From the IMG/VR virus record IMGVR_UViG_3300047552_001046, positions 1 to 20,021 of that record: a stretch of DNA of 20,021 bases; one strand, 5' to 3'. The stretch comes from a virus. The notes beneath the pieces are model-generated. The model had not been told where the DNA came from, searched no databases, and worked only from the letters and a program-made list of their open reading frames with translations. The position numbers were made by a program, and so were the translations under genes. Within the stretch, counting starts at the first letter, position 1. The number at the start of each line of letters is the position of its first letter. Positions 3,634 through 19,770 of the stretch are shown here, in pieces.

Positions 3634-4897
3634 AATAGTTCAATGGGAGTATGTGATATCCGCATTATCACATACGGGGCTGGACCATAAGTCCATATTT
3701 GAAAATGTGGAAGTGTTGGACAAAATTAACGATATGTTTGGTGCAGCACAAAATAAACACAATCATAAAGTTAGTTTGTTGTTCAATGCTTTTACCGAGA
3801 AAAATCACGGTAAAAAATTATTGAATTACTCTAAAGTGTATAATGTGCATAGTGACTCTGGAGGTTTGCAAGTAGTCACTTTGGGTAAAAAAATTGACGC
3901 AGATATGCGTAAGAAAATTTACGAAACACAAGCAAAATATTCTGACGTTGCTATGAGTTTTGATGAAATGCCAGTTGCAGTAGATGAGAGATCGACTAAG
4001 TTGGATACCAATGCTCGTAGGTTTGATAAAGATAATTTTGAATCAATGTCTAGACAATCTGGCAAAAATTTGCTCGAACAGATTAATTATTTTCTTGATG
4101 AAAAGACAAAATGTAAACCGTTAGTCATTCTTCATGGTAACGACATCGATTGGTATCAGCGTAATCTAAATTATATTTTGGAAGAAATTCCAGAAACTAA
4201 ATGGAAGTATATTGGTGGTATCGCTTGCGGATCTGGTGCAATGGGATTTGGGACATTGGAGAACATAGAACGATCTGCAGTGATGGCGTTTATTGATGCA
4301 CCGAAACATCTTAAGAAAAAATATCACGTACTAGGTGTCGGATCATTAGGTCGAATGATGCCGTTAGTTGCTCTATTGCGAAATGGTGTGTTCGATAAAG
4401 ACGTTCATATATCGTATGATAGTTCATCTTTGACAATTTCATTTACTATGGGGTTTCATCACTTTGATGATTGGTGGTGTAAAAGTAAACTCACTAAACA
4501 GTATGATGAAACATTCTTAAAAATGTACGATGACGTTTCTAAAAAAGCGCATGAGATATTTGGTGGAGACGTGACAATTGATCGTGAAGATTTACACAAA
4601 CTAATGTGTTTGTCTAAAGGCGCCGGTGCAAGAGGAGATCATCCAGAAAAATTTATTCTAAATGCTGCAGTGTTGTTATCGTCTGTTATGAACTTTAATA
4701 AACAATTACATCGCTTGACGACTGAAGAAAATTATTACAATGACTACGTGACTACACAGAATAAAATGTTATCATCACTATCCATGATAAAGTCGAAACA
4801 AGATTTTACCGCATGGAAACGAGATTGTGGTAGATTTTTCGACTCACAGCGCGTTAGTGATGGAACAGAATCTTCCTTAGAGGAGTTTTTCGCATGA
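3623..4897 (+). CDS. dpdA: DNA 7-deazaguanine transglycosylase (DpdA, TGT superfamily)
   Basis: A 424-residue protein with the tRNA-guanine-transglycosylase barrel signatures: SDSGGLQ (residues 77-83, matching the DSGGFQ loop with its catalytic Asp), SFDEMP (112-117), GGIACGSG (198-205), LGVGSLGRM (237-245) and SYDSSS (264-269), where D266 is a candidate nucleophile. The usual C-terminal zinc site of tRNA TGTs is not obvious. Phage members of this family, named DpdA, exchange guanine in DNA for a 7-deazaguanine and so shield the genome from restriction. Its position after folE fits. The DpdA subfamily and the exact base cannot be told from the sequence. It overlaps the gene before by 11 bp and the one after by 4 bp. 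Confidence 0.85.
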   Translation: MSNKIVQWEYVISALSHTGLDHKSIFENVEVLDKINDMFGAAQNKHNHKVSLLFNAFTEKNHGKKLLNYSKVYNVHSDSGGLQVVTLGKKIDADMRKKIYETQAKYSDVAMSFDEMPVAVDERSTKLDTNARRFDKDNFESMSRQSGKNLLEQINYFLDEKTKCKPLVILHGNDIDWYQRNLNYILEEIPETKWKYIGGIACGSGAMGFGTLENIERSAVMAFIDAPKHLKKKYHVLGVGSLGRMMPLVALLRNGVFDKDVHISYDSSSLTISFTMGFHHFDDWWCKSKLTKQYDETFLKMYDDVSKKAHEIFGGDVTIDREDLHKLMCLSKGAGARGDHPEKFILNAAVLLSSVMNFNKQLHRLTTEENYYNDYVTTQNKMLSSLSMIKSKQDFTAWKRDCGRFFDSQRVSDGTESSLEEFFA

Positions 4898-5223: not shown

Positions 5224-6262
5224 AATTTATATTGTTGCACTTGAACCCATCGATTCGCGGTACACAAAACAATGGTTTGACGCAATACCAGAAGAAATTC
5301 TGTTAGAAGATCCAAATGCAAATGTCATTACTGTGTCTGGATCGAGTATTGGAGAATCAAAAACAGAAGGTGCGTTTTTAGATTTCGCATTGACTAATAT
5401 TTGGAAAAACACTCAAATTAACAAGATCGCTAAAATGTTTAGTGATGGAGAAATTCAACCAGGTGACAAGTTTTTGGTCACCGATGCATGGCACCCCGGT
5501 ATCATTCAAATACGATATATGAGTGAATTGTTGCATATACCGGTTGAAATTCACGCAATTTGGCATGCTGGTTCATATGATAAAACAGATATTTTGGGAT
5601 TCACTATTAAAGATAAACAATGGTCTCATGGGTTTGAGAGAGCAGTATATCATGCTTGTGATTACAATTGGTTTGGTTCTAAACATCACATGAACTTGTT
5701 TTGTTCCGTACTTAATGTCCCAGGATTAAAAGCATTTCATTCTGGACAACCACATAAACAGATTATAGATTCGTGTGCCAGTGTTCCATTTTCTGAGAAA
5801 GAAAACATTGTTGTATTTGGGCATAGAATATCACCAGACAAACAACCAGAAATTTTTGATGACTTAGCAAAAGAATTCCCAGATTACAAATTTGTGTTTA
5901 CTCAAAAAATGAATTTGAGTAAACCAGAATATTACAATTTGCTACGCAAAGCAAAATTATCTTTCTCCGCCAATCTACATGAAAATTTTGGCATATCTAT
6001 GGTTGAGTCAATATTTAATGGTACATGGGTTTTGTTGCCAGATAGACTTTCATATAGTGAAATGTATTCTGATGAAATGAAATATCCATCTGATTGGACA
6101 TCATCGTGGGACAATTACATCAAAAATAAAAGTTTGATGGTTGGTAAAATAAAAAATATTTTGCACGCTTTACCTAGAGATGGATATCTCGAATTGCAAA
6201 AGAAATTTTTACTTGAAAACTATATGTCATCTAAAGTAATGGTAAGGCAATTAATAAAATGA
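5216..6262 (+). CDS. Glycosyltransferase, GT-B fold (family 4/1-like)
   Basis: A 348-residue protein started by GTG, preceded by AAAGGGA (5203-5209). The C-terminal half has IVVFGHRISPDKQPEIF and the family hallmark HENFGISMVESIFNGTWVLLP, in which the two Glu (E-x7-E-like) bind the nucleotide sugar. The N-terminal half has alternating beta/alpha character but no diagnostic motif. It likely transfers a sugar from an NDP donor; whether the acceptor is DNA, a capsid protein or a host surface glycan cannot be said. The neighbouring dpdA and cupin make decoration of DNA or virion possible. It overlaps the next gene by 4 bp. Confidence 0.78.
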   Translation: MSKIYIVALEPIDSRYTKQWFDAIPEEILLEDPNANVITVSGSSIGESKTEGAFLDFALTNIWKNTQINKIAKMFSDGEIQPGDKFLVTDAWHPGIIQIRYMSELLHIPVEIHAIWHAGSYDKTDILGFTIKDKQWSHGFERAVYHACDYNWFGSKHHMNLFCSVLNVPGLKAFHSGQPHKQIIDSCASVPFSEKENIVVFGHRISPDKQPEIFDDLAKEFPDYKFVFTQKMNLSKPEYYNLLRKAKLSFSANLHENFGISMVESIFNGTWVLLPDRLSYSEMYSDEMKYPSDWTSSWDNYIKNKSLMVGKIKNILHALPRDGYLELQKKFLLENYMSSKVMVRQLIK

Positions 6263-6585
6263 TATTTGGTAAAGTAGAGTGTGATTGCTGTAAGCAATAT
6301 TTTGAAGCAGACGAGGTTATTAAGTCTAGTAAAGAAGTATTAGTTGGTAGGACATCTGGATCTAGAATAGTAACAACTAATTTAACATTAGGTAAATCGA
6401 CGCCAAAATTATCTTTTATTTCTGGTAGGAAACACTATAAGTACATAGATGTGTATTACTGTAAAGAGTGTGCCACTAATATGATAACCGAGGCACCATA
6501 TACAATCATGGATCTTCTATCATGGGCGTTTTTTGCGTTCCTCGTTTATCTTGGTTATCGATATTTGATTGTTTATGTCTTATGA
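6259..6585 (+). CDS. Small zinc-ribbon membrane protein, unknown function
   Basis: A 108-residue protein with two Cys pairs, CDCC (residues 8-11) and CKEC (68-71), separated by beta-rich sequence, consistent with one zinc ribbon. A hydrophobic segment at about 87-106 (LLSWAFFAFLVYLGYRYLIV) forms a C-terminal membrane anchor, placing the ribbon probably on the cytoplasmic side. No specific family is recognised. It is the last gene of the run that starts at folE; the next gene has its own promoter. Confidence 0.7.
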   Translation: MIFGKVECDCCKQYFEADEVIKSSKEVLVGRTSGSRIVTTNLTLGKSTPKLSFISGRKHYKYIDVYYCKECATNMITEAPYTIMDLLSWAFFAFLVYLGYRYLIVYVL

Positions 6586-6606
6586 ATCAATGAGTTAGGT
6601 GAGGTA

Positions 6607-6649
6607 TTGTGTTTTGTGTCAAGTTTGTTATAATTGATTCATCGATTGA
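6607..6649 (+). promoter_or_regulatory. Phage promoter with conserved downstream block
   Basis: TTGTGT (6607-6612), a 16-bp spacer and TATAAT (6629-6634) are followed directly by TGATTCATCGATTGA. The -10 plus the following 15 bases are identical to the promoter at 16247-16267 and closely match 8511-8531. It serves the gene at 6672, whose Shine-Dalgarno is AAAGGA. GTTTGTT (6623-6629) and AACAAAC (6649-6655) form an imperfect hairpin around the block, but the RBS stays free. Confidence 0.7.
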
Positions 6650-6671
6650 ACAAACACTGAAAGGAAACAAA

Positions 6672-7133
6672 ATGATCCCCAAATTCGATTCTCAGATCTC
6701 CATGATCAACTATTTCAAAGGTCTTGAGGGTGCAGATTTTGCCAAACTTTTGAAAGATGAATTTGATATGGATGCCCCGTTAGGTGTTCCATCTTATCAA
6801 AAAGAATATCTATTCAAATATATGATTCAGGGTATGACATTTCACAATAAAACTGGTGATGACCTCATCAAGTATGCGGTTGATCGTACCGAATCTTTGG
6901 TGAAAACTCAACCTCATTTGTTGGTTAAGAATGAACCCAAAGACATCAAACCCACGTCTTTGTCCCCCAAAGCGACAAAAGTTGCAGGAAAGCGCAGCGG
7001 CAAGATTGTCGGCACGTATGGTGAAGTGCGTTTCTTAGCGCATCGTAATGTGTGGGTTGGGTTTGGTGAAAACGGCAAAGTGTGTGTCACCAAAAAGACT
7101 CAAGAAGCGGTTATTGCATACTTTGCGGACTGA
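6672..7133 (+). CDS. Hypothetical protein
   Basis: A 153-residue protein starting at ATG 6672, preferred over the in-frame upstream start at 6609 because that lies in the promoter and AAAGGA stands at 6660-6665. The first 85 residues look helical and acidic (MINYFKGLEGADFAKLLKDEF). A Pro/Lys-rich linker (about 87-110) follows, and then a beta-rich tail GTYGEVRFLAHRNVWVGF. Basic linker plus small beta domain would suit nucleic-acid binding, but no family is recognised. It leads the segment containing RNA ligase 1. Confidence 0.7.
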   Translation: MIPKFDSQISMINYFKGLEGADFAKLLKDEFDMDAPLGVPSYQKEYLFKYMIQGMTFHNKTGDDLIKYAVDRTESLVKTQPHLLVKNEPKDIKPTSLSPKATKVAGKRSGKIVGTYGEVRFLAHRNVWVGFGENGKVCVTKKTQEAVIAYFAD

Positions 7134-7139
7134 TATATC

Positions 7140-7337
7140 ATGCGAATCATCGGAAAACAAGTTCACTACGGAACGTATGGTCGTCTTATGAATGTCGATG
7201 AAGACGGGAATGAAATAGAGACCAAAGTTGAAGTACAAAAACGAAGTAAGCGCGGTCGGCCTCGGAAAAATGAAACATCAGAAGGCAAAACAATGGAAGT
7301 GACTCCGCAATTATATCACGCATTTGGATTACTATAG
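7140..7337 (+). CDS. Small basic protein with AT-hook-like motif
   Basis: A 65-residue protein starting 6 bases after the previous stop. Residues about 35-44 read KRSKRGRPRK, which contains the GRP core flanked by basic residues typical of an AT-hook (minor-groove binding to AT-rich DNA). The N-terminal half (RIIGKQVHYGTYGRLMNVDEDG) may form a small beta domain. The Shine-Dalgarno is poor, so coupling to the gene before is likely. A role in phage DNA binding is an inference from the motif alone. Confidence 0.6.
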   Translation: MRIIGKQVHYGTYGRLMNVDEDGNEIETKVEVQKRSKRGRPRKNETSEGKTMEVTPQLYHAFGLL

Positions 7338-7344
7338 AAATAAA

Positions 7345-8466
7345 ATGAAAGTACAAGAATTCATCTTCAAGAATGGTTTGGATGCTTTGACTGAACAGTA
7401 TGGTGTCGAAGTCAAGCGGTATGATAATGGCTACGTGCAACTCAACTATTCACAAATTGACTCGCCTAAGATGGTTGATGTTGTAGATGAGTGTCGTGCA
7501 TTGACTTTGCTAGTCAATGCAGACAATACTTCAAAGGTGATTGGTCGAGGGTTCAAGCGATTCTACAATTTCGGTGAAGCGAATACCAAGGACTTCGATT
7601 TCTCAAATGCAATCGCATGGGAAAAAGCAGATGGGTCATTAACTCTTGTGCGTTGGTCACCTTTGGATAACAAGTGGATCATAGGCACTCGTGGTATGGC
7701 GTATGCAGAAGGGAACTTTGTGTTCTCAATGACTGCATCCGGTGGCACGTTTTATGACTGGATTCTGAAAGCATTTGGTGTTGGTGAAGACCAATTCCAA
7801 GAAGCGTTTGCTGATTGTGATCGTGGTTGCACTTATGTCTTTGAATACACCGCACCAGAAAATCGGGTAGTAACTCGCTACATGGAACCGAAAATGGTTT
7901 TATTGGCAGTGATAGAGAACGACACTGGCAAAGAAGAGGCTATCGGTACCTGGCAAACATACTTCTCTGATTCAGGTCTGAATGTTCGATTGCCAAAGTC
8001 ATGGGCAGTTGGTTCATCTGATGAAGTTGTGAAACTAATTGAAACACTGGATGTACTAGAAGAAGGGTTTGTTGTATATGATTGCACTTCTGGTAATCGT
8101 GTAAAGATCAAGTCTGCTGCGTATGTTGCTGTACACCACCTTCGTGGCAATGGTACTCCGTCTATGTCTCGTTTGATGGAAGTGGTGTTGATGAATGAAC
8201 AGGATGAGTTAATTGAGTACTTCCCAGAGTTTGCATCGTATGTTGATCCGATTGTGGAAGCATTACATCAATTGAATCAGGAAGCTGATTATATCTTCAA
8301 TACTAACAAAGGTGCAGAGTCACAAAAAGATTTTGCTTTGGCAGTAAAAGATAGTCGTGTTGCTGCAATATGCTTCAAGGCACGGAAAGAGAATGTGACT
8401 GCACACCGTGCTTTTGAGACAATGGAGATGTCTCAACAAGTCAAACTGTTGGAGAAATTTGTTTAG
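7345..8466 (+). CDS. rnlA: RNA ligase 1 (T4 Rnl1 family)
   Basis: A 373-residue ATP-dependent RNA ligase; T4 Rnl1 has 374. Nucleotidyltransferase motifs are in order: motif I EKADGS with nucleophile K94, motif III-like VFEYTAPENR (165-174), motif IV EEGFVVYD (239-246) and motif V VKIKS (253-257). It seals 5'-phosphate to 3'-OH RNA ends. In T4 the enzyme with Pnkp repairs tRNA-Lys cut in the anticodon loop by PrrC. The ATG at 7345 is chosen over TTG 7324, which lies inside the previous gene. The gene is near rnl2, pnkp and a tRNA array that includes three Lys tRNAs. Confidence 0.93.
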   Translation: MKVQEFIFKNGLDALTEQYGVEVKRYDNGYVQLNYSQIDSPKMVDVVDECRALTLLVNADNTSKVIGRGFKRFYNFGEANTKDFDFSNAIAWEKADGSLTLVRWSPLDNKWIIGTRGMAYAEGNFVFSMTASGGTFYDWILKAFGVGEDQFQEAFADCDRGCTYVFEYTAPENRVVTRYMEPKMVLLAVIENDTGKEEAIGTWQTYFSDSGLNVRLPKSWAVGSSDEVVKLIETLDVLEEGFVVYDCTSGNRVKIKSAAYVAVHHLRGNGTPSMSRLMEVVLMNEQDELIEYFPEFASYVDPIVEALHQLNQEADYIFNTNKGAESQKDFALAVKDSRVAAICFKARKENVTAHRAFETMEMSQQVKLLEKFV

Positions 8467-9008: not shown

Positions 9009-10015
9009 GTGAATTTGTTGGTTGGCCCGAGATTGGGCAATTTCGTAATGCAGTAAAAGCGATTCAAAATCGTGTGTGCTGGAATGGTAAAGATGAGAAC
9101 GGCGATCCTATTTTTGATCGCACTCGAAAGATGCCTGTACTAAAATTCATTGGCACAGTCAAGTCACACGGAACCAATGCTGCTATTCGTTTCAATGCTG
9201 ATGGGTCTACTCAGTATCAATCTCGTCAGAATGATATTACTCCGCTGAAAGACAATGCAGCATTTGCTTTCAATATGTCAGTGATTGATTTTGCACCAAT
9301 CAAAGTGATGTTTGAGTTCAAAGAGACTCTGATCATTTTTGGAGAGTGGTGCGGCGGCAATATTCAAAAGGGTGTTGCTATTTCTGGCCTGCCTAAGATG
9401 TTTTTGATCTTCGGTGCAATGATCGATGGTGAATGGCAAGATATGTTGAAGTTCAAACACGTTCGTATGCCCGAAAACAACATCTACAACATCTTTGACT
9501 TCCCGACATTTGAGGTTGATATTGATTTTGCCAATCCTGCTGATATTCAAAATCGTTTGATTGAATTGACTGAACAAGTTGAGGCAGAGTGCCCAATTGG
9601 CAAGTACTTTGGTAATGTTGGTGTGGGTGAAGGCATTGTTTGGTTCGCTGAAGACCTAGACTATCGGTTTGCGGATGCACGATTCAAAGTGAAAGGTGAG
9701 AAGCACAGTGTTTCAAAAGTGAAGAAACTTGCTTCTGTTGATACTGAAAAATTGGATTCAATCAAGGCATTTGTTGATATGGTTGTGACTGATGCACGTT
9801 TGAATCAAGGCATCGAGTATATCAAATCACAAGGACTGGATATTGATGTCAAAAACACTGGAGCGTTCTTGAAGTGGTTTGTTGGTGATGTTATCAAAGA
9901 AGAGAGTGACCAAATGGTAGCAAATGGCCTTGAACCGAAAGATGCTAATGCTGCTGTGTCAAAGAAAGCCCGTGAGTGGTTCTTTGAACAATTGAATAAG
10001 GAAGCAGGTCTATGA
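9005..10015 (+). CDS. rnlB: RNA ligase 2 (T4 Rnl2 family)
   Basis: A 336-residue ligase with motif I VKSHGTN (nucleophile K53; G56-T57-N58), motif III FGEWCGG (112-118), motif IV GEGIVWF (208-214) and motif V FKVKG (227-231). KxxGTN and the C-terminal extension beyond motif V (about 105 residues) are those of the Rnl2/RNA-editing ligase group, which seals nicks in duplex RNA; T4 Rnl2 also has a separate C-terminal domain. The start at 9005 overlaps the previous stop and agrees with family length; an upstream open frame to 8924 lies within the previous gene. The pnkp gene follows with a 4-bp overlap. Confidence 0.9.
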   Translation: MSEFVGWPEIGQFRNAVKAIQNRVCWNGKDENGDPIFDRTRKMPVLKFIGTVKSHGTNAAIRFNADGSTQYQSRQNDITPLKDNAAFAFNMSVIDFAPIKVMFEFKETLIIFGEWCGGNIQKGVAISGLPKMFLIFGAMIDGEWQDMLKFKHVRMPENNIYNIFDFPTFEVDIDFANPADIQNRLIELTEQVEAECPIGKYFGNVGVGEGIVWFAEDLDYRFADARFKVKGEKHSVSKVKKLASVDTEKLDSIKAFVDMVVTDARLNQGIEYIKSQGLDIDVKNTGAFLKWFVGDVIKEESDQMVANGLEPKDANAAVSKKAREWFFEQLNKEAGL

Positions 10016-10908
10016 AAGCTATTGTTACGATTGGCGTATCTGCGTCAGGTAAAACTACTTGGGCGAAACAATATGCCAAAGAATCCATTAGCCACACTAT
10101 GGTCATTTCCCGCGATGATATTCGTCGTGAGATTCTTGAACTTCGCCACAAGCGTCGTCTAGAACCAGGCGAACTATGGAAAATGTGGAAATGGAAAGAT
10201 GAAGATCTTGTCACTGCAAAGTTTCAGGAACAGGTTGCTGTGGCACATCGTAATGGATTTGATCTTGTTATCGCTGATACCAATCTTGTTGAAAAGTACA
10301 GAGTACTGACAGTCAAGCGACTTGAAGATCTTGGTTACGAAGTTGAACTAAAATTGTTTCCTGTCACATTTGAGGAAGCAGTCAAGCGTGATAACGGTCG
10401 TGCTGATGGTGTTGGTGCTTCGGTCATTTGGAAACAGTTCAAACAATATCACGATACTATCGGTACTCAGAAATATGTCCGTGATACCACACTAGACAAA
10501 GTTATCATTTTTGACGTTGATGGCACTCTTGCTATTATGAAAGATCGTGGTCCGTTTGATTGGGACAAAGTTGGGCAAGATGAAGTCAATGAAGATGTTG
10601 CTGCAATGTTTCGTGCATACAAAGCAATGGGATATAGAATGATTGTGATGTCTGGTCGAGATGGTGTTTGCAGACCAGAGACATATGATTGGCTTGAGAA
10701 AAATGATCTTCATCCATTCGTTCTTCTCATGCGTAAAGCAGGAGATATACGGCGTGATTCAGAGATTAAGCGAGAACTATTTTTCAAATATGTCGCACCA
10801 TACTACAATGTGTGTGGTGTTGTTGATGATCGTAAGCAGATGATTCGTGAGTGGCAACTTATCGGACTCACGGTGTTTAATGTAGGTGATGCACACGAGG
10901 AATTTTAA
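10012..10908 (+). CDS. pseT: Polynucleotide 5'-kinase / 3'-phosphatase (T4 Pnkp)
   Basis: A 298-residue bifunctional end-healing enzyme, nearly the length of T4 Pnkp (301). The kinase domain has P-loop GVSASGKT (8-15), SRDDIR (33-38; D35, R38) and VKRDNGR with R126, the same residue numbers as in T4. The acyl-phosphatase-type domain has FDVDGTL (D168, D170), MSGRD (213-217) and VVDDRKQM (270-277). It removes 2',3'-cyclic phosphate or 3'-phosphate and phosphorylates 5'-OH ends, preparing cleaved tRNA for Rnl1. ATGA overlap with rnl2 makes a healing-and-sealing operon. Confidence 0.96.
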   Translation: MKAIVTIGVSASGKTTWAKQYAKESISHTMVISRDDIRREILELRHKRRLEPGELWKMWKWKDEDLVTAKFQEQVAVAHRNGFDLVIADTNLVEKYRVLTVKRLEDLGYEVELKLFPVTFEEAVKRDNGRADGVGASVIWKQFKQYHDTIGTQKYVRDTTLDKVIIFDVDGTLAIMKDRGPFDWDKVGQDEVNEDVAAMFRAYKAMGYRMIVMSGRDGVCRPETYDWLEKNDLHPFVLLMRKAGDIRRDSEIKRELFFKYVAPYYNVCGVVDDRKQMIREWQLIGLTVFNVGDAHEEF

Positions 10909-11691: not shown

Positions 11692-12312
11692 ATGTCATTT
11701 CCGACATTGAACGACTATTATTTTCATAATGGATGTTTCGTACTAAGGAATAAGTGGACAAAAAGATTTAAGATTGGTATGATCATTGGTATATTGCTTG
11801 GGGGATTGTTGGGATCAAAAGTTACTAGCAGTCATATTCAGGAGTTCGAGGCAAACTTTGTGACCACACCTCAACAAAAAATGGTCGAGTATATCAAATC
11901 GACTAATAAAGCAGTAAGTGAAACAGATGCAATTCAAATCGTCAATTCAACAATGAAATGGGCAGATGAGTTTAATGTAGACCCGTATCTCATTTTTGCT
12001 GTGCAAGAAGTCGAATCGACATACGATAAGTATAGTATGAGTAAGACTGGTGCACTTGGCGTTATGCAAGTCATTCCTTCTTGGCATTTGGATAAAATGC
12101 GGGAAGCAATCAAGGACATTGGCACACCCGAGATATTCAATATTCACACTAATATTTACTTGGGAACGTGGGTACTTAAGTCTTGTATGCGTCAGTTTAA
12201 TTTGACAAAAAACTCATTGAATTGTTATAATGGTTCAAATGCAAAACCTAATGGATACGATGAAAAGGTGTTGACTGCATATCGCAAGATTCAAAATATG
12301 ATGAAGGGATAA
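11692..12312 (+). CDS. Membrane-anchored lytic transglycosylase (SLT domain)
   Basis: A 206-residue protein with an N-terminal membrane segment at about 26-42 (FKIGMIIGILLGGLLG) after a basic stretch, so it is likely anchored with the catalytic domain in the periplasm. The SLT motif is VQEVESTYDKYSMSKTGALGVMQ, with catalytic Glu at E108 and the GxxGxMQ loop at 120-126, followed by CYNGSN. It cleaves the MurNAc-GlcNAc bond to give a 1,6-anhydro product. In a phage it could assist lysis or cell-wall remodelling in infection. Preceded by AAAGGAG. Confidence 0.85.
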   Translation: MSFPTLNDYYFHNGCFVLRNKWTKRFKIGMIIGILLGGLLGSKVTSSHIQEFEANFVTTPQQKMVEYIKSTNKAVSETDAIQIVNSTMKWADEFNVDPYLIFAVQEVESTYDKYSMSKTGALGVMQVIPSWHLDKMREAIKDIGTPEIFNIHTNIYLGTWVLKSCMRQFNLTKNSLNCYNGSNAKPNGYDEKVLTAYRKIQNMMKG

Positions 12313-14211: not shown

Positions 14212-14788
14212 TTGTTCGTTTGCAATGTGGGCATTCCATCTTAACTTGTGAAGGGTGAGATCCTTCAGATAACATTTTATAATTTTGATTTCTTGAAATT
14301 TCAGAACCACCGTTACATGCTTTAAAAGGATTTTTGTCCCACGATTTCATGAATTCTTTATGTTCATTTGATGCAATTGTTGATCTAGGTACACCCTTTT
14401 TCGCCTTTGATATGTTTGGAAATTTTTTACCAAGTTTTGATTCACTAATTAATTTTCTAATTTCAATTGAAGTTGAGTCAAAATTACCATTAGCTATAGT
14501 CATATTTAAGTATAAATCAGAAGACACAACATTCAATTTTCTTTGAAGTCGTTCTTCACAAACATAAGCTTCTTGTCTGGTTTTGTGTGTTGATATTATT
14601 TTTGTTTTAAATAGATTTGGACTTGTTTTTAATTCATTCTTCCATATAAATTTATACATTTTAGATGACACAGATCCGTGATAACCGTTAATAATTTTTG
14701 TAACTTTAGATGAGCCAATATAAAACATTGGCATTTTGTTTCCGTAGTATACAGTAAGATAAGTGCAATAAATATCGGTGCTGGACAT
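14153..14788 (-). CDS. GIY-YIG homing endonuclease with C-terminal zinc finger
   Basis: The only minus-strand gene. The 211-residue start (14788) is chosen because AAGGAGA stands just upstream on the minus strand; an in-frame ATG at 14818 lacks such a site. The N-terminus carries YCTYLTVYYGNK...FYIGSSK, a GIY-YIG nuclease core, then EAYVCEERL with the conserved Glu. The middle is rich in Lys, Ser and Asn and repeats like DNA-binding modules (SKAKKGVPRS). The C-terminus CPHCKRTIKG...HFDKC is a C2HC-type finger. It cuts a target allele so that the gene spreads by repair. It sits antisense between queD and the 14884 gene, with its own late promoter. Confidence 0.9.
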   Translation of the reverse strand: MSSTDIYCTYLTVYYGNKMPMFYIGSSKVTKIINGYHGSVSSKMYKFIWKNELKTSPNLFKTKIISTHKTRQEAYVCEERLQRKLNVVSSDLYLNMTIANGNFDSTSIEIRKLISESKLGKKFPNISKAKKGVPRSTIASNEHKEFMKSWDKNPFKACNGGSEISRNQNYKMLSEGSHPSQVKMECPHCKRTIKGLGNIKRYHFDKCKSKL

Positions 14789-15722: not shown

Positions 15723-15912
15723 AGGATCGTTTCTGCAAACCAAACTAAAAGACTATGTCAACATTCTAACAATGGAGAAATCTTGCAGTAGATGACAAAT
15801 CTGGAAAGACGGGTTGACTCATAGGAAAGACTGTGTGCTATATCAAGAAAGTATTGGTTGACAGTTGTGGAATAGACACAATGACACTAGGAAGAGACTA
15901 AACCACGATCCT
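15723..15912 (+). ncRNA. Candidate structured RNA (about 190 nt) with pseudoknot potential
   Basis: There is no ORF here, but complementary segments abound. AGGATCGT (15723-15730) pairs with ACGATCCT (15905-15912) and closes the region. CTGCAA (15733-15738) pairs with TTGCAG (15783-15788). CTATGTCAAC (15753-15762) pairs with GTTGAC-TC-ATAG (15813-15824) and crosses the previous helix. TTGTG-GAATAGA-CACAA (15865-15881) is a perfect 7-nt-loop hairpin. It matches no RNA family I recognise. Confidence 0.4.
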
Positions 15913-16403: not shown

Positions 16404-16419
16404 ACCGTAATCGTAGTAA

Positions 16420-16450
16420 TGTGGCAGGAAACGAGATCCTGAACCCCACA
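16420..16450 (+). ncRNA. Minihelix-like hairpin
   Basis: TGTGG then CAGGA-AACGAGA-TCCTG then a 4-base bulge and CCACA. The stacked 5-bp helix with a 7-base loop has the shape of a tRNA T-arm on a short acceptor stem. The rest of 16404-16520 shows only small hairpins (for example CTGAA-aaa-TTCAG, 16501-16513) and no gene. Confidence 0.3.
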
Positions 16451-16522
16451 ATAAACATGGTTCAAATGGGCGTGACTGAGGATGGATGATCTTGTGTGAT
16501 CTGAAAAATTCAGTTGATAATA

Positions 16523-16593
16523 AAGGATTCTCCTTACTTACCTAGAGGGATGTCGGTGTTAGCGCATACTGGGAGATGAGAGTTAGAATCCTT
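16523..16593 (+). ncRNA. Hairpin-closed RNA element, unassigned
   Basis: AAGGATTCT (16523-16531) and AGAATCCTT (16585-16593) are a perfect 9-bp inverted repeat, 71 nt overall, about tRNA size. No clear anticodon arm; ATGTCG-GTGTTAG-CGCAT inside is a candidate with one bulge. There is no 3' CCA. Confidence 0.3.
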
Positions 16594-16693
16594 CATTATC
16601 CTTCTTCTAACGAGGAAGTAACCAGAATTTGCGAAAGAGTGCAGTACAAGTGGATACTTGTCATCGAAACAACTGTGCTTTTGAACGGAACTA

Positions 16694-16816
16694 ATCCATC
16701 CGAAGCAAACCAGTTTCGACTGATGCCTTTAGCGAGGGAGTCTAGTACAGTGCGGATCGTTCTTCGGTGCTGTGCGATGTGATAGCGTTATCCGAGAGTA
16801 AGAGAACGTGATGGAT
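16694..16816 (+). ncRNA. Branched RNA element, unassigned
   Basis: ATCCATC (16694-16700) pairs with GATGGAT (16810-16816). Between them are CAGT-TTCG-ACTG (16711-16722, a UUCG tetraloop), ACAGTGC with GTGCTGT (16747-16773, two G-U) and GATA-GCGT-TATC (16781-16792). A closing helix with three internal hairpins in 123 nt suggests a folded RNA; the family is unknown. ORFs across it have no plausible RBS or motif. Confidence 0.35.
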
Positions 16817-16839
16817 AGCCCAGTCGAATTCAATTTGGT

Positions 16840-16915
16840 CTACTAGTAAGACTGTTCAGGTTCAATCCCTGTTAGTGCTGCGGCATTACTGGTAGTGTGT
16901 GGTACTAGTAGACCA
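16840..16915 (+). tRNA. tRNA-like gene with enlarged 5' arm containing a TTCAATC loop
   Basis: Exactly 76 nt with acceptor CTACTAG/CTAGTAG, U8A9, discriminator A and encoded CCA. The acceptor is extended outward and inward to a 12-bp helix (16837-16848 / 16903-16914). In the D-arm position is CAGG-TTCAATC-CCTG, a T-arm-like hairpin; in the T-arm position is a short CTGGTAGTG segment that looks like a D-loop. A middle stem TAGTG/CATTA (16873-16888) holds the 6-base loop CTGCGG, so GCG is a possible anticodon. The apparent exchange of D and T arms is unusual. tRNA identity uncertain. Confidence 0.4.
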
Positions 16916-16926
16916 AAAAACCATAT

Positions 16927-16990
16927 TTGTCGAACAGCATAATATACTTGCTGAAAAGAGCCTTAGCGGGAATTCGTATTCGACAAACCA
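16927..16990 (+). tRNA. Short tRNA-like element ending in ACCA
   Basis: Acceptor TTGTCGA/TCGACAA (part of a 9-bp perfect repeat) with discriminator A and encoded CCA, but only 64 nt long. One internal hairpin, CAGCA-n9-TGCTG (16935-16953), follows directly; no second or third arm with normal geometry can be drawn. It may be a minimal or decaying tRNA. Confidence 0.35.
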
Positions 16991-16991
16991 A

Positions 16992-17127
16992 ACTCGATGC
17001 AGCTTGAGTACGAGTGGGTATCCCTGCCGATCTTCTAAGGATCCTGGCACTCAGCCGAAAAGGGCAGGGCAGAATTTCAATCAAAGCCTAATTAACTTTG
17101 ATTGGAGGCGTGACTGATCATTACGCC
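16992..17127 (+). ncRNA. Hairpin-rich RNA segment, unassigned
   Basis: CCCTGCC (17022-17028) pairs with GGCAGGG (17063-17069) around GATC-TTCTAAG-GATC (17029-17043) and GGC-ACTCA-GCC (17046-17056). The loop TTCTAAG has anticodon-loop form and would present CTA. Also seen are ACTCG/CGAGT (16992-17015), CAATCAAAG/CTTTGATTG (17078-17104) and GGCGT/ACGCC (17107-17127). No standard tRNA can be drawn across these. Confidence 0.35.
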
Positions 17128-17129
17128 GG

Positions 17130-17220
17130 ACCGCAATGATGGAAATGGGAGACATAGGCCTCTTAAAGGGTCAGGTGAAATAAACGCACCATGTGGGTTC
17201 GAGTCCCACTTGCAATGGTC
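17130..17220 (+). tRNA. tRNA-Leu(UAA), irregular acceptor
   Basis: Class II tRNA: D-arm with GGGAGA, anticodon arm GGCCT/GGGTC with C-U-UAA-A (anticodon 17164-17166), long variable arm GGTG/CACC and a canonical T-arm GTGGG-TTCGAGT-CCCAC. The anticodon loop has only 6 bases. The acceptor ACCGCAA pairs with TTGC and GGT but with a 3-base AAT bulge (17214-17216) on the 3' side. No CCA is encoded. It could be partly degenerate. Confidence 0.6.
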
Positions 17221-17245
17221 TTAAGATCACAGAATTAAGATAGGT

Positions 17246-17516
17246 TGATTTGGTTACTGCAGGCTGGATCATCCTGTAAATCATGCAAGGCGGCACTACA
17301 TGTAAAACATGCCATGCCACTGAATAGTCTACAAAAGAGTATAGGACCAATGATAATGGGCTAGTTTTTGCCTACACTCTTGAACTGGAATAATCAACCA
17401 GAAGTAGAATTGAAGTCGGTCAGTCTTCTGATACTGACAAATCTTGCAGCTAAATGAGTCATCCTCTTTAGCGTGGGAAACGTGCAAGAAATCTTGGTCA
17501 TACCCTTGAACCAAGA
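17246..17516 (+). ncRNA. Hairpin-rich RNA segment, unassigned
   Basis: There is no gene here, but strong local pairing: TGATTT/AAATCA with inner CAGG/CCTG (17246-17283); GGCA...CATGT-aaa-ACATG...TGCC (17292-17318); an 11-bp stem AAGAGTATAGG/CCTACACTCTT with one A-C mismatch (17335-17381); GTCAGT/ACTGAC (17419-17438) with an 8-base loop containing CTTCTGA; TCTTGCA/TGCAAGA enclosing GCTAAA/TTTAGC (17442-17489); TCTTGGT/ACCAAGA (17492-17516). GGTTGATT (17243-17250) also complements AATCAACC (17392-17399), just before a CCA. These may be unrecognised tRNA-like genes. Confidence 0.35.
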
Positions 17517-17525
17517 ATGAATATT

Positions 17526-17617
17526 GGGGAGCGCAAGTAAGGACTAACTGGTGTAGTCGGGTGGCTGTAACCCACCTCCTAATAGGCATGGCGTTCGATT
17601 CGACCCGTTCCCCACCA
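17526..17617 (+). tRNA. tRNA-Tyr(GUA) with insertion after the acceptor
   Basis: Acceptor GGGGAGC/GTTCCCC, discriminator A and encoded CCA. Anticodon arm GGTGG-CTGTAAC-CCACC (GTA at 17567-17569), a class II variable arm CCT-AAT-AGG as expected for bacterial Tyr, and T-loop TTCGATT. Two oddities: nine bases (17533-17541) separate the acceptor from the D-stem GACT/AGTC where two are normal, and the T-stem has a bulged A on its 3' side. Confidence 0.78.
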
Positions 17618-17624
17618 AAACTAT

Positions 17625-17699
17625 TGCGCTATAAAGACCGTTACCATGGGCGACTCTATAGTATGAGAAATGTCAGTGCGAACCTGACTAGCGCAGCCA
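17625..17699 (+). tRNA. tRNA-like gene, anticodon not assignable
   Basis: 75 nt with perfect acceptor TGCGCTA/TAGCGCA, U8A9, discriminator G, encoded CCA and perfect T-stem GTCAG/CTGAC. The T-loop is TGCGAAC, with G at position 55. The D and anticodon regions do not give normal stems; CTC/GAG with an 8-base loop TATAGTAT is the best candidate. Identity left open. Confidence 0.5.
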
Positions 17700-17705
17700 A
17701 ACAAT

Positions 17706-17781
17706 AGTCCATTAGCTCAATCGGGAGAGCAGAGTGTTGATAACGCTCAGGTACTTGGATCGAAACCAAGATGGACTACCA
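17706..17781 (+). tRNA. tRNA-Ile(GAU)
   Basis: All stems are regular: acceptor AGTCCAT/ATGGACT, D-stem GCTC/GAGC with GG in the loop, anticodon arm GAGTG-TTGATAA-CGCTC (GAT at 17739-17741), T-stem CTTGG/CCAAG, discriminator A and encoded CCA. The T-loop is ATCGAAA, so position 54 is A where U is normal; this is the T-loop of eukaryotic initiator tRNA. Confidence 0.88.
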
Positions 17782-17786
17782 ACAAC

Positions 17787-17861
17787 ACACCGTGAGACAG
17801 CTGGCGTGGTCAGTAGCCTTTCAAGCTACCTAGATGGGATCGTAACCCATACGGTGTACCA
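17787..17861 (+). tRNA. tRNA-Glu(UUC), altered T-loop
   Basis: Acceptor ACACCGT/ACGGTGT, anticodon arm GTAGC-CTTTCAA-GCTAC (TTC at 17820-17822), T-stem ATGGG/CCCAT, discriminator A and encoded CCA. The T-loop is ATCGTAA: A54 and U58 instead of U54 and A58. Position 8 is G and position 14 is G. Stems are intact, so this is not simple decay. Confidence 0.85.
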
Positions 17862-17870
17862 AAATTAGGT

Positions 17871-17946
17871 GACATAGACTAATAGTGCTGCTATTGGTGT
17901 AATGACAGTTGAAGTCTGTAAAGGTAAGCCCCACCCTATGTCACCA
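17871..17946 (+). tRNA. tRNA-Phe(GAA), enlarged 5' arm and reduced T-arm
   Basis: 76 nt with acceptor GACATAG/CTATGTC, discriminator A and encoded CCA; leader GGT pairs with the trailer ACC to make 10 bp. The anticodon loop TTGAAGT sits on ACAG/CTGT. The D region is about 7 bases longer than normal and contains AATAG-TGCTG-CTATT; the T region is about 6-7 shorter, with GGT-AAGCCCC-ACC and no TTC. The total length stays normal, as in the tRNA-like gene at 16840. Confidence 0.6.
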
Positions 17947-17995: not shown

Positions 17996-18115
17996 GCAGG
18001 AGTGGCGGAACTGGTATACGCAACGGACTTCTTCAATGACATTGATAACATCCAGTGTCATTCTAAAAATCCGTCGACTTTTGTCATGTGGGTTCGACTC
18101 CCATCTCCTGTACCA
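17996..18115 (+). tRNA. tRNA-Leu with a 35-nt intron-like insertion in the anticodon loop
   Basis: Acceptor GCAGGAG/CTCCTGT, U8G9, D-arm with CTGGTA, variable arm GAC-TTTT-GTC, canonical T-loop TTCGACT, discriminator A and encoded CCA. The anticodon stem ACGGA/TCCGT (18023-18027 / 18070-18074) encloses 42 bases where 7 are normal. These fold as CTTCTTC, a 10-bp hairpin (18035-18062, one G-U) and CTAAAAA, a symmetric 7x7 internal loop. Joining CTT to AAAA would give a CTTAAAA loop with anticodon UAA; other junctions give other anticodons. Confidence 0.8.
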
Positions 18116-18374: not shown

Positions 18375-18393
18375 ATGAATTAGTTGTATTTGA

Positions 18394-18468
18394 TGTGTGC
18401 GAGCAAGCAAGGTGTAAGCGGCTGGCTGTTAACCAGCATAGAGCTAGGTTCGATTCCTAGGCACACAG
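18394..18468 (+). tRNA. tRNA-Asn(GUU) in a 17-bp extended acceptor helix
   Basis: Acceptor TGTGTGC/GCACACA, anticodon arm GCTGG-CTGTTAA-CCAGC (GTT), canonical T-loop TTCGATT and discriminator G; no CCA encoded. The D-stem is weak (two pairs). Leader TTGTATTTG and trailer CAAATACAA are exact complements, so with the acceptor about 17 pairs form with one mismatch. Leader-trailer pairing this long would affect RNase P and 3' trimming. Confidence 0.8.
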
Positions 18469-18482
18469 CAAATACAATTTAT

Positions 18483-19285: not shown

Positions 19286-19300
19286 GTTAGTACTCAGTGT

Positions 19301-19375
19301 CTAGGTGTATTGTCAATCTGGTAGACGGCCCTCTTTGGAAGTGGGAGGCTGCAAGTTCAAATCTTGCCACCTAGA
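19301..19375 (+). tRNA. tRNA-Pro(UGG) in a perfect 17-bp extended acceptor helix
   Basis: Acceptor CTAGGTG/CACCTAG, D-arm with CTGGTA, anticodon arm CCCTC-TTTGGAA-GTGGG (TGG at 19336-19338; one T-T mismatch), canonical T-arm GCAAG-TTCAAAT-CTTGC and discriminator A. CCA is not encoded. The leader TACTCAGTGT (19291-19300) pairs perfectly with ACACTGAGTA (19375-19384), giving 17 continuous base pairs with the acceptor. Confidence 0.88.
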
Positions 19376-19389
19376 CACTGAGTATTATT

Positions 19390-19715: not shown

Positions 19716-19770
19716 AGGATGCGTTCAGCAAACTTAAAAATTAGACTTTTAATCTAAAAATAAGCATCCT
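19716..19770 (+). tRNA. Miniature tRNA-Lys(UUU) without T-arm
   Basis: Perfect acceptor AGGATGC/GCATCCT and perfect anticodon arm TTAGA-CTTTTAA-TCTAA (TTT), yet only 55 nt in all. The anticodon stem is joined to the 3' acceptor strand by six bases (AAATAA) with no T-arm; the 5' side has 18 bases with at most GTT/AAC pairing. CCA is not encoded. The shape recalls metazoan mitochondrial mini-tRNAs. It may be a decoy or a true minimal tRNA. Confidence 0.55.

Follow-up and report, generated by a model that had tools for sequence, protein, structure and literature searches.

The described systems closest to the locus studied here are the canonical tRNA (RF00005), circularly permuted tRNA genes, permuted tmRNA (RF04321), and structured RNAs found among phage tRNA genes, such as the stable RNAs C and D interspersed with the tRNA genes of T4, and GOLLD (RF02032). 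Permuted tRNA genes are known from Cyanidioschyzon, green algae, a nucleomorph and Thermofilum, and the 34 genes listed in a 2014 review come from algae and archaea only (PMC3978253). Evasion of tRNA-targeting defences by phage tRNAs has also been described (PMC11555353, PMC12409363).

The window, that is, the whole stretch of DNA analyzed in this work (20,021 nt), is a 20-kb phage contig from IMG/VR, and its region is common to four relatives (L001, L002, L023, and L045). A tRNA-rich non-coding region spans from approximately 15.7 kb to the window end, and two genes of RNA repair enzymes are present:

7324-8466: gene of an Rnl1-like RNA ligase
10012-10908: gene of a Pnkp-like end-healing enzyme

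The presence of these genes is compatible with a phage meeting anticodon nucleases, and T4 is the established precedent for phage RNA repair against such nucleases.

Within the array, the original prediction had singled out two 76-nt tRNA-like genes with ACCA, at 16840-16915 and 17871-17946, and had interpreted them as tRNAs with exchanged D and T arms. The lengths and the ACCA ends are as described, and in each case ACCA follows a perfect 7-bp end stem (CTACTAG/CTAGTAG and GACATAG/CTATGTC, respectively). The features of this region are as follows:

16834-16848, plus strand: 5' strand of the first terminal helix, TTTGGTCTACTAGTA, 15 bp, 100% complementary to 16903-16917
16857-16871, plus strand: T-arm CAGG-TTCAATC-CCTG, 4 bp, with the full T-loop consensus
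16873-16888, plus strand: possible capped acceptor-like hairpin TAGTGC-TGCG-GCATTA with a UNCG-type loop
16890-16895, plus strand: D-loop-like TGGTAG without a D stem of its own
16903-16917, plus strand: 3' strand of the first terminal helix, TACTAGTAGACCAAA, holding ACCA in paired form
17526: ordinary tRNA-Tyr
17706: ordinary tRNA-Ile
17787: ordinary tRNA-Glu
17868-17877, plus strand: 5' strand of the second terminal helix, GGTGACATAG, 10 bp with 17936-17945
17878-17898, plus strand: 8-bp hairpin ACTAATAG-TGCTG-CTATTGGT occupying the place of the D-arm (minimum-energy fold, z = -3.9)
17905-17919, plus strand: anticodon-like hairpin ACAG-TTGAAGT-CTGT (GAA, Phe)
17923-17935, plus strand: 3-bp hairpin GGT-AAGCCCC-ACC occupying the place of the T-arm, without the T-loop consensus
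17936-17946, plus strand: 3' strand of the second terminal helix and the CCA end

In the first element (16834-16917), the TTCAATC loop indeed lies on the 5' side (16861-16867), within a genuine T-arm, and TGGTAG on the 3' side. The claim of a displaced anticodon arm does not apply to it, as the element has no canonical anticodon arm to be displaced: a search for a hairpin with a 7-nt loop, T33 and R37 yielded none. In the second element (17868-17946) the GAA hairpin is shifted by approximately 7 nt toward the 3' end, as had been claimed, with 33 nt before and 15 nt after it, compared to 25-27 and 20-22 nt in the neighboring tRNAs.

The end stems comprise 15 and 10 bp rather than 7, so that ACCA is partly or wholly within the helix; in the second element the pairing of 17868-17877 with 17936-17945 involves the discriminator and CC. 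Pairing of the leader with the discriminator and CCA was measured on 863 tRNAs of the window and related arrays, of which 830 encode CCA. Leader-NCCA pairing of at least 3 bp is observed in none of these 830 genes, while it amounts to 6 bp in the first element and 3 bp in the second one, and hence neither has the single-stranded discriminator and CCA of a canonical tRNA. According to one report, leader-RCCA pairing inhibits the encounter with RNase P (PMC9433436). Long leader/trailer helices are seen at 13 out of 33 genes lacking CCA, mostly those of tRNA-His and tRNA-Asn and, in the window, that of tRNA-Pro. In such CCA-less tRNAs (window 18379-18482 and 19288-19387, as well as His and Asn genes of the relatives), the acceptor stem is often extended to approximately 20 bp; helices of this kind are absent from the CCA-encoding tRNAs of the arrays.

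The likeness of both elements to RF00005 thus consists of the 76-nt length, the 7-bp end stem, ACCA, and either a T-arm (first element) or an anticodon-like loop (second element), whereas they differ from it in the lack of a cloverleaf fit, in the paired CCA, and in the T-arm, which is absent or on the wrong side. Neither element is called by ARAGORN or Rfam, and no Rfam family matches them by sequence or by model. Three covariance models were built from 31 tRNAs of the window array and its relatives, with the arms in the conventional order (R1), with the D and T arms exchanged (R2), and circularly permuted (R3). R1 assigns 57-65 bits to the training tRNAs of the window and 35-39 bits to the diverged tRNA-Asn and tRNA-Pro, compared to 4.4 bits for the first element, where just the T-arm hairpin is matched, and 2.5 bits for the second. 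The search with R2, the swapped-arm model, yields 8.7 bits (E = 0.13) for the first element, below its false matches to ordinary tRNAs, which reach 17.4 bits, and places the T-arm on the anticodon arm, that is, in a wrong register; the second element is unmatched. R3 scores the first element at 4.4 bits, again for the T-arm only. Given these scores, the exchanged-arm reading is unsupported, and the second element, having neither the T-loop nor the D-loop consensus, cannot be an arm exchange. Hence, although the first element has its T-arm in the 5' part and TGGTAG in the 3' part, and although the anticodon hairpin of the second is shifted, we regard it as extremely improbable that the two function as tRNAs whose D and T arms are exchanged or shifted, their CCA ends being also base-paired. 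The tRNAs that are rearranged in the relatives have undergone circular permutation rather than an exchange of arms.

Several other tRNA-like interpretations were considered and rejected. A tRNA inverted onto the other strand scores 3.4-5.6 bits on the minus strand, due to the palindromic stem; a conventional tRNA reusing the T-arm of the first element with an upstream 5' acceptor AGCGTTA would have a 46-nt D region, no CCA, and chance pairing; and a D-armless tRNA-Ser with a GCT loop in the first hairpin of the second element finds no support. No homologues of either element were identified by BLAST in related loci and phage records or by exact patterns in IMG/VR, where the sole match to the T-arm pattern (L256) is without a tRNA, and consequently there is no covariation support for either element.

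We lean towards the interpretation that 16834-16917 and 17868-17946 are helix-closed small non-coding RNAs and not exchanged-arm tRNAs. Helices of at least 13 bp are observed in 10 inter-tRNA spacers, compared to 0.3 in shuffled sequences, and both elements combine a helix beyond chance (15 bp at 16834-16917 and 10 bp at 17868-17945), a structured interior and a position outside tRNAs. The 15-bp helix has a chance expectation of approximately 3e-4 across the 4.3-kb array and pair probabilities of about 1.0 except for the end pairs, while for a 10-bp helix about 0.3 occurrences are expected in the array, making the second helix marginal if taken alone. The folding z-scores are -3.7 and -3.9 for the first and second element, respectively. 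The T-arm of the first element, with pair probability 0.90-0.93, arises under the strict definition in 0.03% of shuffled interiors (p = 0.0003), and orphan T-arms recur within other helix-closed RNAs (L127, L131, L176, L195, and L001); the interior of this element has competing folds within 2-3 kcal/mol. The anticodon-like hairpin of the second element is formed by chance in 12% of shuffled interiors. The terminal helices of both elements differ from the common array motif AAGCACATT/AGTGTGCTT and from the AGGAT..CAGCAA motif. In the favored interpretation, the first element would be a 15-bp helix closing a junction with one genuine T-arm and a second hairpin, while in the second element a 10-bp helix would enclose three hairpins, of which the central one is similar to the anticodon stem-loop of tRNA-Phe.

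The second element, whose anticodon hairpin is Phe-like, could be either such a helix-closed RNA of four-way form or a tRNA-Phe that is degenerate. More generally, the elements might be decaying or pseudo tRNA genes, the first one being a scrambled relic, and the second, a tRNA-Phe in which the D hairpin has expanded and the T-arm has shrunk. Their location in a tRNA array, the 76-nt size and ACCA agree with this, as do T33 and G37 in the GAA loop of the second element and some likeness, by eye, to the D-arm of tRNA-Phe from L001 (ACTAAT..TGGTG). Still, perfect helices of 15 and 10 bp are unexpected in decaying genes, the leader-CCA pairing is unlike that in the 830 array tRNAs, and the scores of 2.5-4.4 bits are low, so we consider decay improbable.

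Tracing the orphan T-arms revealed units with the layout AGGATnnn-CAGCAA-...-nnnATCCT that contain a complete tRNA in a permuted order. Approximately 16 apparent circularly permuted tRNAs were counted in the related loci examined, among them the following (a minus sign after a locus denotes reverse-complement coordinates):

L143(-): unit at 6430
L147(-): unit at 7980
L200(-): unit at 4069
L189(-): units at 2754 and 6618
L208(-): unit at 12239
L230(-): units at 5537 and 9820
L140: unit at 3697
L175(-): unit at 9198
L178: unit at 10447
ON615601.1, 122113-122253(-): unit of BUCT-ZZ01

In L143, for example, the order is T-arm GTTGGTTCGATTCCAAC, 3' acceptor ATTTGCC, TTAT, 5' acceptor GGCAGAT, D-arm GCTCAGCGGTTGAGC, and anticodon arm AAGGGCTCCATGCCCTT. 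BUCT-ZZ01 is a cultured Synechococcus phage with a complete genome, where the unit is unannotated; the tRNA finders used here detect none of the permuted units, that of BUCT-ZZ01 included, nor those with a capped or missing acceptor.

Compensatory changes are observed at 7 out of 7 pairs of the permuted acceptor stem (alignment, n = 13), and covariation over the whole structure is 0.855, compared to 0.240 for shuffled and at most 0.205 for slid alignments, some of the aligned units having been picked by acceptor pairing; among the units found without this criterion, 11 out of 12 pair at six or more of the seven positions. Unconstrained folding recovers the permuted form in all ten units, with most pairs at probabilities of about 0.8-1.0. 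Several units score 34-43 bits with R3; this model alone is unspecific, adjacent ordinary tRNAs reaching 37 bits (L262, L263), and therefore units were accepted only if they had a closing helix of their own, showed a paired acceptor, and were not overlapped by an ordinary tRNA. The permuted-tRNA scan produced 105 matches in 4.7 Mb, compared to 21 in 2.1 Mb of shuffled sequence, and most matches were dropped as chance or tRNA-tRNA junctions; a scan of genome contigs with one permuted pattern gave no match. Taken together, we consider it very likely that the phages of the relatives encode circularly permuted tRNAs, whereas none in phages was found in the open-access literature, to which our search was confined.

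As in the known permuted genes, the T-arm and 3' acceptor precede the 5' acceptor and D-arm with a short intervening loop, and the ends are located at the variable loop, in the 26/27 region or close to the anticodon arm. Unlike in algae and archaea, the ends are held by an AGGAT-type helix of 7-9 bp with CAGCAA and not by a bulge-helix-bulge, the genes are phage-borne, and some acceptors are capped (L175 7009, GAAA; L178 6623, GCAA) or missing (L223 3421, L140 3577). Capped or missing acceptors speak against aminoacylation or mature-tRNA processing of those units, which, with no usual amino-acid loading, would be tRNA mimics. If the permuted tRNAs are real transcripts, then bacterial phages possess permuted tRNA genes; bulge-helix-bulge splicing machinery of the algal and archaeal type is not known there, so that these tRNAs must be made or used in some other way.

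The first element of the window resembles a circularly permuted tRNA weakly. It may be read as a reduced one, with the terminal helix, the T-arm, an acceptor capped by a UGCG tetraloop, a remnant of the D-loop and no anticodon arm. It would then be an acceptor-capped derivative of the relatives' units, sharing its topology with the tRNA-like domain found in permuted tmRNA. The order of its parts is that of the units in L143, L147, L200, and L230, the permuted-tRNA scan selected it unprompted, and capped or lost acceptors do occur in the relatives. The 16873-16888 hairpin, taken as the 3' and 5' acceptor strands, forms 7 out of 7 pairs (p = 0.0096), and such pairing jointly with TGGTA directly behind it has p = 6e-5 in shuffles, these p-values being partly post hoc. 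Against this, R3 matches the T-arm alone, the predicted acceptor pairing probability is just about 0.12, far from that in the genuine permuted units, and both the D stem and the CAGCAA motif are lacking. We therefore find this reading unlikely and, given the low hairpin probability and the absence of CAGCAA, assign the element only to the broader class of helix-closed RNAs, as one that includes a T-arm module. A broader scheme, in which the tRNA arrays of the large phages of this group carry a family of helix-closed tRNA mimics ranging from free anticodon stem-loops through complete permuted tRNAs to acceptor-capped or acceptor-lacking forms, with 16834-16917 as a capped member devoid of the anticodon arm, seems to us unlikely as a whole, and is offered tentatively; its part on permuted tRNAs in phages is well supported in the relatives, and the doubt concerns the place of the window element in the family.

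The likeness of the first element to permuted (two-piece) tmRNA consists in the T-arm, a possible acceptor, a stemless D-loop, and a long helix at the place of the anticodon arm. RF04321 is matched at approximately 100-140 bits in 10 out of 28 records of these phages, while window positions 16700-17130 show no match up to E = 10 and no recognizable tag frame; by the lack of an RF04321 match, the permuted-tmRNA reading is rejected here. The permuted tmRNA genes are those of L234-L243, and the phage of L001 has a diverged one (L244, approximately 6540-6780, minus strand) with the tag ..ASNDAVWALAA.

Helix-closed RNAs of other kinds are also found in these arrays. Approximately 90 CAGCAA units with an AGGAT-type closing helix were identified in the relatives, and 58 out of 68 short ones (55-62 nt) have a hairpin with a 4-bp stem and 7-nt loop resembling an anticodon stem-loop; in these 58 hairpins T33 is present in 81% and a purine at position 37 in 79%, and TTT is the commonest triplet. 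The window has a unit of the same family as the carriers of permuted tRNAs in the relatives:

19716-19770, plus strand: CAGCAA unit with an AGGATGC/GCATCCT helix
19741-19757: anticodon stem-loop TTAGA-CTTTTAA-TCTAA (UUU, Lys) inside this unit

One more CAGCAA unit is observed at 15723-15912, and the units show weak resemblance to the Dictyostelium Class I RNA (Rfam, E = 0.06). Upstream of the array lies a head RNA:

16404-16620, plus strand: head RNA, given as context only
16425-16441: pseudoknot-like core, CAGGAAACGAGATCCTG
16516-16531/16585-16600: closed helix with a hypervariable interior

The 17-nt core (CAGGAAACGAGRTCCTG) is shared, together with its conserved surroundings, by about 100 IMG/VR contigs, and Rfam gave no match for the head RNA of the members searched. 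The head is 73% identical between phages and the helix is kept, while the interior differs between phages as much as random sequence does (0.477 compared to 0.456).

Provided that the two elements are helix-closed RNAs, they would probably belong together with the head RNA, the CAGCAA units bearing anticodon loops and the CAGCAA units bearing permuted tRNAs as RNAs located between tRNAs. The array transcript may be cut at the long helices, and we propose that the units would then mature without an encoded CCA end. They might act as tRNA mimics displaying one or two tRNA faces, the T-arm/elbow or the anticodon loop, to proteins that bind or cut tRNAs, and by analogy would most plausibly be decoys against host defence targeting tRNAs. 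Such mimics would bear on the answers of phages to tRNA-cutting defences.

Other features of the arrays deserve mention. Many array tRNAs have T-loops with A54 instead of T54 (ATCGTAA, AGCGTTA, ATCGAAA): in the window, these are Glu 17787, Ala 18131, Met 18216, Gly 19634, Asp 19781, and Lys 19942; the same is seen in L001, L003, and L045, often with T58 replacing A58. In tRNA-Leu(TAA) (window 17996-18115), the anticodon loop is interrupted by approximately 35 nt folding as a separate hairpin, an insert that is intron-like, yet far below the size of group I introns. In L002, a GOLLD RNA (188 bits, 14212-14683) overlaps a tRNA-Glu call, and positions 16523-16550 and 17262-17301 are halves of one tRNA gene parted by an insert that contains a second tRNA-Pro in addition to a frame resembling a homing endonuclease. 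A tRNA-Ser-like gene (L258; ON615601.1, 128507-128579, minus strand) seemingly has another tRNA, a permuted one, enclosed between the anticodon arm and the T-arm. Finally, the RNAs at L148(-) 4091-4177 and L159 5413-5483 have identical 18-nt terminal-helix arms and interiors with nothing in common, as though cassettes had been swapped within a constant stem.
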